Part shown: positions 51,227 through 53,914 of the stretch, one piece after another
Layout of the letters: each line of letters opens with the position of its first letter
Numbering within the stretch: the stretch's first letter is position 1
Source: Geovibrio ferrireducens
GTDB lineage: Bacteria; Chrysiogenota; Deferribacteres; Deferribacterales; Geovibrionaceae
Assembly: GCF_026226615.1 (NCBI RefSeq)
Contig: NZ_JAJAPB010000003.1
Span: 1-64,000 of the forward strand
Direction of reading: 5' to 3'
Length of the DNA: 64,000 bases
Program-made: the position numbers and the translations under genes
The notes under the pieces: model-generated
What the model saw: only the letters and a program-made list of their open reading frames with translations
The model's database searches: none
Told to the model about the DNA's origin: nothing

Positions 51227-51454
51227 TTAGAATGACTGTACTTCTTTAACTTCGGGTATCTGATCTTTCAGTCTGCCTTCAACTGCGTGTTTCAGCGTCA
51301 TTGTGCTGAAAGGGCAGCTTCCGCATGCGCCGGTAAGCTGTACTTTTACTATACCGTCCTCAGTAACGCCCAGAAGCTCTATATCGCCTCCGTCCGCCTG
51401 AAGCGCGGGTCTTACCTGCTCAAGAACTGCTTCAACTCTTTCTTTCAAGCTCAT
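51227..51454 (-). CDS. Nfu-type Fe-S scaffold / carrier (NifU C-terminal domain)
   Basis: A 75-residue protein equal to the C-terminal NifU domain. It has the cluster-binding CxxC in TGACGSCPFSTMTLKHAVE (about residues 41-44) and the LQADGGDIELLGV motif. It passes Fe-S clusters to target proteins. The start overlaps the iscU stop by one base (TAATG). Confidence 0.95.
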   Translation of the reverse strand: MSLKERVEAVLEQVRPALQADGGDIELLGVTEDGIVKVQLTGACGSCPFSTMTLKHAVEGRLKDQIPEVKEVQSF

Positions 51455-51909: not shown

Positions 51910-53094
51910 CTAGTTTCCTCTGTTGTAAGCGGGAGACATTTCACAAAGTCTTTTAACGATACCGGGCAGTTCCTCAAGCACTTTGTCCACTTCCTCGTCA
52001 GTTGTATAACGGGAAAGAGAGAAAGTAATTGATCCGGCGCAAATATCGCTGGGTACTCCCACCGCCGTGAGAACGGGAGAGGCCTGAAGGTCTTCCTCGT
52101 CTTCGGCAAGGATGTTTGACGAGCAGGCAGAACCACTCGCCGCATATATTCCTTTAAGTGCAAGCCACATAAGCAGCGACTCACCCTCGATGAACTCTAT
52201 CCAGAAACTTACATGTCCCGGAAGCCGGCGTTCAGGATGCCCCGTAAAATGCAAAAAGTCAAACATATTCGCAAGCCCGTCCCAGAGCCGTTTTGAAAGC
52301 CTTTTCATTTCAGCGGAGTATATGTGCATTTCCTCTTTGGCTATGCGCGCGGCTTCGCCCATGCCCACTATGGCGGCAACGTTTTCTGAGCCGCTTCTGT
52401 AGCCGAACTCCTGATGCCCGCCCTGCATGAGCGAGGCGACTTTTGTTCCTTTTCTTATGTAAAGAGCAGCAGCCCCTCTGGGCCCGTAAAAATTCTGCGA
52501 GGCAAGGGAAAGAAGATCGCAGTTAAGCCTGTTAACGTCGATTTCCATATGTCCTGCACCGGCAACGGCATCTATATGGTATATAACGCCCTTCTCTTTA
52601 CAAATCCTGCCTATTTCCTCATTGAACTGAACAGTGCCAATCTCCGGATTGCCGAGCATAACAGAGACAAGCGCCGTATCGGGGCGGATAGCCTTTTTGA
52701 GGTCTTCTAAATTTATAAGACCGTTGTCCGCCACTTTCAGCTTGGTTATCTCATAACCATCGTTCATGAAGGATATAAGCGGGTTCTGCACAGAGAAATG
52801 CTCTATTTCGCTTATGATAACGTGTTTCTTTTTTCCGTCCTGACGCTTGAGCACACCCTTCACCGCAAGGTTGTTGGACTCTGTGCCGCATGAGGTGAAA
52901 ATTATTTCCTCTTCCTCCGCCCCTATAAGCGCAGCAACCTGCTTTCTCGCCTCCTGCACCGCCTCGAACGATTCCCTGCCGAGAGGGTAGAAATGCGCGC
53001 TGGGGTTGCCGTAATGCTCCGTAAGAAATGGGAGCATTTTATCAACCACTCTGCTGTCGGGCTTTGTTCCCGCAACATTGTCTAAAAAAGCCAT
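51910..53094 (-). CDS. NifS/IscS-like protein lacking the PLP lysine
   Basis: A 394-residue homologue of class I cysteine desulfurases: FLDNVAGTKP, FTSCGTESNNLAVKG, EIEHFS (His), HIDAV (Asp175), and the sulfur-carrying loop SGSACSS with Cys324. In the PLP site, however, the SGHK motif reads A198-S-Q200-N201. The Schiff-base lysine is thus Asn, the neighbouring His is Gln, Ser is Ala, and the conserved Gln after DAV is Ala178. The codons (GCC TCG CAG AAT) were read directly. Normal PLP-dependent desulfuration seems impossible. An IscS without the PLP lysine and without desulfurase activity has been described in Archaeoglobus fulgidus. A role as cysteine ligand or assembly partner is inferred. 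Confidence 0.85.
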   Translation of the reverse strand: MAFLDNVAGTKPDSRVVDKMLPFLTEHYGNPSAHFYPLGRESFEAVQEARKQVAALIGAEEEEIIFTSCGTESNNLAVKGVLKRQDGKKKHVIISEIEHFSVQNPLISFMNDGYEITKLKVADNGLINLEDLKKAIRPDTALVSVMLGNPEIGTVQFNEEIGRICKEKGVIYHIDAVAGAGHMEIDVNRLNCDLLSLASQNFYGPRGAAALYIRKGTKVASLMQGGHQEFGYRSGSENVAAIVGMGEAARIAKEEMHIYSAEMKRLSKRLWDGLANMFDFLHFTGHPERRLPGHVSFWIEFIEGESLLMWLALKGIYAASGSACSSNILAEDEEDLQASPVLTAVGVPSDICAGSITFSLSRYTTDEEVDKVLEELPGIVKRLCEMSPAYNRGN

Positions 53095-53095
53095 T

Positions 53096-53914
53096 CTATT
53101 CTCCTGTCAGTTCCTTCAGATGCGCTGTAACCTGCCCTGTCAGAACCTTTATATAATCGCCCGCAAAGCTTATCATGCCGCCGGACGGATGCTTTATAAC
53201 ACCTATTCCTTCGTTCTCCATGGCCTCTTCCAGACTTGAGGCGCTGAACTCGTAAAACATGCCGCCTTCTTCTGAGAAAACAACATTATCCCCAAGGAAA
53301 AAATCCGCAAGGAAAACGGTGGAGACCGGAATGATTCTGAAATTTAAGGTCATCCCTGTGGTTTCTTCAAGCCTTTTTTTGTAACAGTTCATTATGTTTG
53401 AACTGTCATCACTGCCCAGCAGAACATTGAAGGCCACCCTCTCCTCAAACACCTTTGACTTGTCACGCCCGAATGAGAAAAGGTTTCTCGTCTGGCTTAT
53501 CAAATCATCAATGGCGTTTCTGCCGAAGAGAGCCGCAGGCATAAGCAGGCTGCCCCTCACTTTTGATTTATCGCCCTTAAAGCGGCGGGCAATGTACTCT
53601 ATGGGTTCTGCTACCTCATAAAGATCGTCATAACCGCTGAAAATTCCGGTACAGTCAACAATGGAGGCATCCAGCTTCCTTATGGCATCCGCATGTATTC
53701 CCGGATCACCCAGTATAACCGCTATCTCCTCATCACCGAGGTCTTTGATGTTTCTGGCCTCGCAGGCGGGCTTTTCCGCAGCAATAGCGGGCAGGAAGTC
53801 CTCAGAGGAGTAAATGTTAACTTCAAGAAGCGGGAGTTCCTCTTCTATCCTGCTCAGAACCTCGCCGAGCAGAAGGGAATCGTTAGCGTAAACTGCGGCT
53901 TTAATGCCTTTCAT
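53096..53914 (-). CDS. Putative ASADH-fold (Usg-like) protein of the Fe-S operon
   Basis: A 272-residue protein not matching a standard Fe-S family. Its layout recalls aspartate-semialdehyde dehydrogenase and its inactive paralogue Usg: an N-terminal Rossmann-like part (IKAAVYANDSLLLGEVL; ASIVDCTGIF resembling the VIDxSGxF strand), then a dimerisation-like part with QTRNLF, ERVAFNVLL and PVSTVFLADFFLG, and a final FAGDYIKVLTGQVTAHLKEL helix. The catalytic NPNCST motif is replaced by LMPAALFG, so dehydrogenase activity is unlikely. It is one base upstream of the NifS-like gene and probably co-translated with it. The fold assignment is tentative. Confidence 0.5.
   Translation of the reverse strand: MKGIKAAVYANDSLLLGEVLSRIEEELPLLEVNIYSSEDFLPAIAAEKPACEARNIKDLGDEEIAVILGDPGIHADAIRKLDASIVDCTGIFSGYDDLYEVAEPIEYIARRFKGDKSKVRGSLLMPAALFGRNAIDDLISQTRNLFSFGRDKSKVFEERVAFNVLLGSDDSSNIMNCYKKRLEETTGMTLNFRIIPVSTVFLADFFLGDNVVFSEEGGMFYEFSASSLEEAMENEGIGVIKHPSGGMISFAGDYIKVLTGQVTAHLKELTGE

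Follow-up and report, generated by a model that had tools for sequence, protein, structure and literature searches.

In textbook Fe-S cluster assembly, a cysteine desulfurase is coupled to a scaffold. IscS of A. fulgidus is described as having no desulfurase activity because its lysine is an aspartate, and as contributing one of its cysteines to ligation of the cluster on IscU (PMC7585200). A second paper names Cys321 of this IscS as a ligand of the IscU [2Fe-2S] cluster, and a figure legend there describes PLP in the lysine-less structure 4EB5 (PMC9769115). IscS1 of Methanosarcina acetivorans, encoded beside an IscU, is likewise reported to be without the catalytic lysine (PMC7585200). In anaerobic delta-iscS E. 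coli, H2S can feed IscU in an IscU-dependent manner (PMC13015791). In MIS (minimal IscS-IscU, MisSU), for example in H. pylori, two core genes are the sole Fe-S machinery (PMC10653786). No published description of a lysine-less IscS in bacteria was found; some key papers lay outside the literature search, and an earlier description is possible.

The window, that is, the whole stretch of 64,000 nucleotides of Geovibrio ferrireducens DNA analysed here (contig NZ_JAJAPB010000003.1), contains such a gene in an operon with IscU and Nfu (Table 1). The frame is open on the minus strand, and stops interrupt the plus strand. By sequence and predicted fold the protein belongs to the NifS/IscS family. 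It has the class V aminotransferase signature (PF00266), and the best Foldseek matches of its predicted model (pLDDT 82.8, with the Cys324 loop at low confidence) are human Nfs1, A. fulgidus IscS and E. coli IscS, at TM values of ~0.9 (0.91/0.94 for A. fulgidus 4eb5). The curated NCBIfam cut-offs are not reached (FeS_nifS, 434.8 bits vs 530.75; IscS, 355.7 vs 643.2).

Table 1. Positions of the operon genes and of the diagnostic codons of the lysine-less protein in the window.
Feature	Position	Strand	Basis
Lysine-less, arginine-less NifS/IscS homologue, 394 aa	51910..53094	minus	Aminotran_5, E=5.5e-75; predicted fold similar to 4eb5
N201 (AAT), position of the PLP lysine in class I desulfurases (K206 in E. 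coli)	52492..52494	minus	N in 43/43 Deferribacteres orthologues
A198-S199-Q200 (S203 to A, H205 to Q), PLP phosphate-contact positions	52495..52503	minus	Alignment, codons
A178, position of Q183	52561..52563	minus	Alignment, codons
P150, position of N155	52645..52647	minus	Alignment, codons
T357, position of the conserved substrate Arg (R354 in E. coli)	52024..52026	minus	Alignment, codons
Cys324, loop cysteine kept	52123..52125	minus	C in 67/67 lysine-less homologues
Seven-residue acidic insert I328-E334 after the Cys loop	52093..52113	minus	Deferribacteres and six extra-phylum sequences, one supported subclade
IscU scaffold, ligands intact, only IscU in the genome	51454..51900	minus	PF01592; NCBIfam NifU_clost above cut-off; single genomic match
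Nfu-type NifU C-terminal domain protein	51227..51454	minus	PF01106
Degenerate aspartate-semialdehyde-dehydrogenase-like protein, directly upstream	53096..53914	minus	Weak NCBIfam match, E=8e-5; kept in 33 sampled loci

Substitutions were numbered by alignment with E. coli IscS as reference. Five cofactor-contact residues are jointly replaced in the window protein (N155 to P150, Q183 to A178, S203 to A198, H205 to Q200 and K206 to N201). Of these, S203 and H205 are presumably the PLP phosphate contacts, the individual roles of Asn155, Gln183, Ser and His being taken from IscS structures generally. The substrate arginine is replaced as well (R354 to T357), and T243 is changed conservatively to S236. 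The codons are GCC (A198), TCG (S199), CAG (Q200), AAT (N201), GCC (A178), TGC (C324) and CAT (H99). Intact are the loop cysteine Cys324, His99 (H104 in E. coli, the general-base histidine), Asp175 (D180) and the T76-type threonine of the TES motif, which is one phosphate contact. Lysine, cysteine and arginine are the residues marked as conserved in cysteine desulfurases (PMC8300815). A substitute lysine elsewhere is unlikely: across the 19 rows of an alignment of lysine-less sequences, no lysine position is fully or almost fully conserved.

The original prediction had read SGHK as A198-S199-Q200-N201 and the PLP-stacking Gln as Ala178; re-reading of the sequence gave exactly these residues and codons. 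Its description of the PLP site as erased is accurate for K206, H205, S203, Q183 and N155, but goes too far for the histidine, the aspartate and the one phosphate contact that remain, and the loss of the substrate arginine (R354T) had been missed. Because H104, D180 and the TES threonine persist, the pocket would be better called disabled, and non-covalent PLP binding is possible. Loss of Schiff-base catalysis, as had been proposed, is what N201 and the absence of a conserved substitute lysine across the wider clade would predict. With both the Schiff-base lysine and the substrate arginine gone, the protein should be unable to take sulfur from cysteine itself, and it is very probably not a classical cysteine desulfurase.

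Conservation of the gene was followed through the class Deferribacteres. Of the 48 genomes, 43 carry an orthologue of full or nearly full length, with 55-95% identity to the window protein. Lysine and arginine are both absent in every orthologue that covers both sites; one sequence ends before the arginine. The dN/dS of the lysine-less gene is 0.055-0.077 within the genus and 0.045 to a neighbouring genus, where dS is saturated; the intact NifS from these genomes gives a comparable value (0.054). A sequencing error or a decaying gene is ruled out by the asparagine found in all 43 orthologues together with these values (0.045-0.077), in line with the earlier argument that one error could not have changed several PLP contacts together. 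In one genome of low completeness (G046) the gene is divided over two frames, and in a fragmented assembly (G034) neither the lysine-less gene nor IscU was found. Genus g11 (two genomes, loci L079 and L080) has IscU beside an intact NifS (SAHK) with an Rrf2 gene upstream, and in the three genomes of f10 an intact NifS adjoins a larger NifU. A further fragmented assembly (G029, locus L081) carries an IscU-Nfu pair with no NifS directly upstream of IscU.

IscU lies directly downstream of the lysine-less gene, followed by Nfu, in the window and in 41 of 42 other Deferribacteres loci, and adjoins it wherever the contig continues. IscU is single-copy in the class genomes, save for weak partial matches in four. 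The window IscU retains C37, D39, C63 and C106 and the LPPxK motif, and all ligands are kept in the partner IscUs of lysine-less homologues (56/56); that Cys324, the histidine and the IscU ligands had survived was thus correctly stated at the outset. The gene on the other side, which lies one base upstream of the lysine-less frame, has no Pfam match. Its product keeps QTR, RxxxxST and GDY motifs in the 33 sampled loci with no cysteine in a conserved column, and is possibly a second pseudo-enzyme.

Lysine-less homologues were also sought outside the phylum. In up to 385 genomes searched, with loci fetched, 24 more were found, mostly beside IscU and one of them in a Myxococcales MAG; the best-scoring matches alone were read, so these counts are lower bounds and not frequencies. 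A contig scan with clade-specific patterns gave nine relatives. These homologues rule out an oddity confined to Deferribacterota, and from its sequence relatives the window form is part of a widespread bacterial group. Outside the phylum N, Q, S, R, V, H or T stands at the lysine position, the arginine is gone in all 24, and the cysteine, histidine and aspartate are kept in all 24, which makes Cys, H104 and D180 invariant in 67/67 lysine-less proteins. Across 139 homologues the two losses coincide, with Cys, His104 and Asp180 invariant; the single exception is L179, which lies inside the lysine-less clade, keeps its lysine, has Arg changed to Leu and N155 to His, and is perhaps an intermediate. 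IscU stands next to 57 of 66 lysine-less genes vs 13 of 71 lysine-bearing ones, the latter loci being second copies or weaker matches and hence a non-random sample. When the trait columns are excluded from the tree, 32 lysine-less rows from bacteria and L179 group together (91/85), and A. fulgidus IscS falls in an unresolved fork beside the group. A single clade including A. fulgidus IscS is not rejected by the AU test (p=0.68), and a single origin of the lysine-less forms is possible. Sequences with the seven-residue acidic insert after the cysteine form a well supported subclade. A C-terminal aromatic residue after the SP motif, a candidate sign of IscU docking, occurs in 62 of 65 scorable lysine-less proteins vs about half of the intact ones not beside IscU; it was spotted post hoc and is not counted as evidence.

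A separate NifS homologue is encoded elsewhere in 42 of the 43 Deferribacteres carriers, the exception being a genome that is 73% complete (G007); in two genomes (G041, G044) the frame holds one stop. All 18 of these loci that were read are intact (SGHK or SAHK); their fetched flanks contain no IscU, and nifS is usually preceded by cysE and/or an Rrf2 gene. One such locus (L054, positions 4995-7213 of contig C15 of genome G000) is a cysE-rrf2-nifS operon with an intact desulfurase and without iscU. The original prediction advised a search for another desulfurase that keeps its lysine, and one is found elsewhere in the genome. Separate NifS proteins with intact Lys, Cys and Arg were also present in 12 of 12 extra-phylum carrier genomes checked. 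SufB/D and HscB were not found in the window genome, nor was HscA above the curated cut-off; the HscB model matches in only 1 of 14 control genomes, so that absence of HscB is common. SufB/D were likewise not found in 49 of 51 genomes of the phylum and are missing in 21 of 24 extra-phylum genomes, a set that includes the genome of L179 (G149), whose homologue keeps the lysine. The IscS-IscU pair without these components gives the window genome a MIS-type gene content. As SufB/D and HscB are absent, no Fe-S scaffold system other than the lysine-less operon is recognised in this genome.

These results are best read as a non-catalytic partner of IscU that offers Cys324 as a ligand, to which we assign a probability of roughly 60%. 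A desulfurase-dead IscS homologue would serve IscU as a structural partner, as the original prediction held, retaining the fold and probably also the IscU docking surface. Cys324 on its mobile loop is likely offered to the nascent IscU cluster as a fourth ligand, or as a transient sulfur or iron ligand. The sulfur for the clusters probably reaches IscU by a route other than the lysine-less protein, and would be supplied as free sulfide or by the separate intact NifS. Since intact desulfurases coexist in nearly all genomes, they could be the source as well as sulfide, and a sulfide-only route is not required. A dead partner is not indispensable, because genus g11 pairs IscU with an intact NifS.

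The main rival is a persulfide relay, in which Cys324 would receive persulfide from the separate intact NifS, or from some other sulfur carrier, and the lysine-less protein would hand it on to IscU. The invariant cysteine and loop, the retained His99 and the near-universal presence of a separate NifS in carriers within and outside the phylum are in its favour. However, the operon shows no protein dedicated to such a relay, tRNA thiolation may be among the purposes of the intact NifS, and in the A. fulgidus precedent the cysteine is reported as a cluster ligand. We consider the relay rather unlikely. Less likely still is that PLP, bound non-covalently, supports a slow or different chemistry. 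Retention of H104, D180 and the TES threonine would fit such binding with some residual or different chemistry, as would PLP in lysine-less 4EB5 according to its published legend (PMC9769115). Against it, the protein has also lost the substrate arginine, two phosphate contacts, Asn155 and Gln183, and the residues found in place of the lost ones differ greatly among clade members, as would be expected without selection for catalysis. In serine palmitoyltransferase a lysine-less subunit pairs with a partner and one active site is restored, and almost all carrier genomes encode another NifS, but such a hetero-dimer is very improbable here, as the two genes lie in separate operons, their products are only ~39% identical, and A. 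fulgidus IscS is reported to form an (IscS-IscU)2 complex on its own.

With the non-catalytic partner preferred, the scaffold's genetic partner here appears unable to desulfurate cysteine, and no SufB/D alternative was found in the window genome. A broader proposal stands at about even odds: in a widespread bacterial clade desulfuration would be split from assembly, a dead IscS paralogue and IscU often forming the sole Fe-S scaffold, with sulfur supplied in trans, possibly as sulfide. Should the inability of the genetic partner be confirmed, delivery of sulfur would be separable from assembly of the cluster not only in archaea but also in bacteria, and the parts played by sulfide and by the loop cysteine would become testable. 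The two g11 genomes offer a natural comparison to the lysine-less form.

Among known systems, the parallel with A. fulgidus IscS (4eb5, 4hvk, 4r5f), drawn in the original prediction, is supported by PMC7585200. Both proteins have lost the lysine (D in A. fulgidus), Gln183 (to A) and the substrate arginine (L in A. fulgidus), and share the retained Cys and His, an IscU partner and the fold (TM ~0.9, the window fold being predicted). The archaeal protein differs in keeping N155 and S203, in its ~41% identity and in having no seven-residue insert after the cysteine, so that the loop geometry may differ between the two. M. acetivorans IscS1 is similar by its published description, in the loss of the lysine and the adjacent IscU, but the organism also has an active IscS2 and SufBC. 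MIS resembles the window genome in having two core genes as sole Fe-S machinery; MisS, however, is described as a cysteine desulfurase, whereas the window protein is without the lysine. E. coli IscS and the class I cysteine desulfurases share with the window protein the fold, the Cys loop and the pairing with IscU, and differ in possessing the active-site Lys, Arg, Asn, Gln and His that are all replaced in the window protein.
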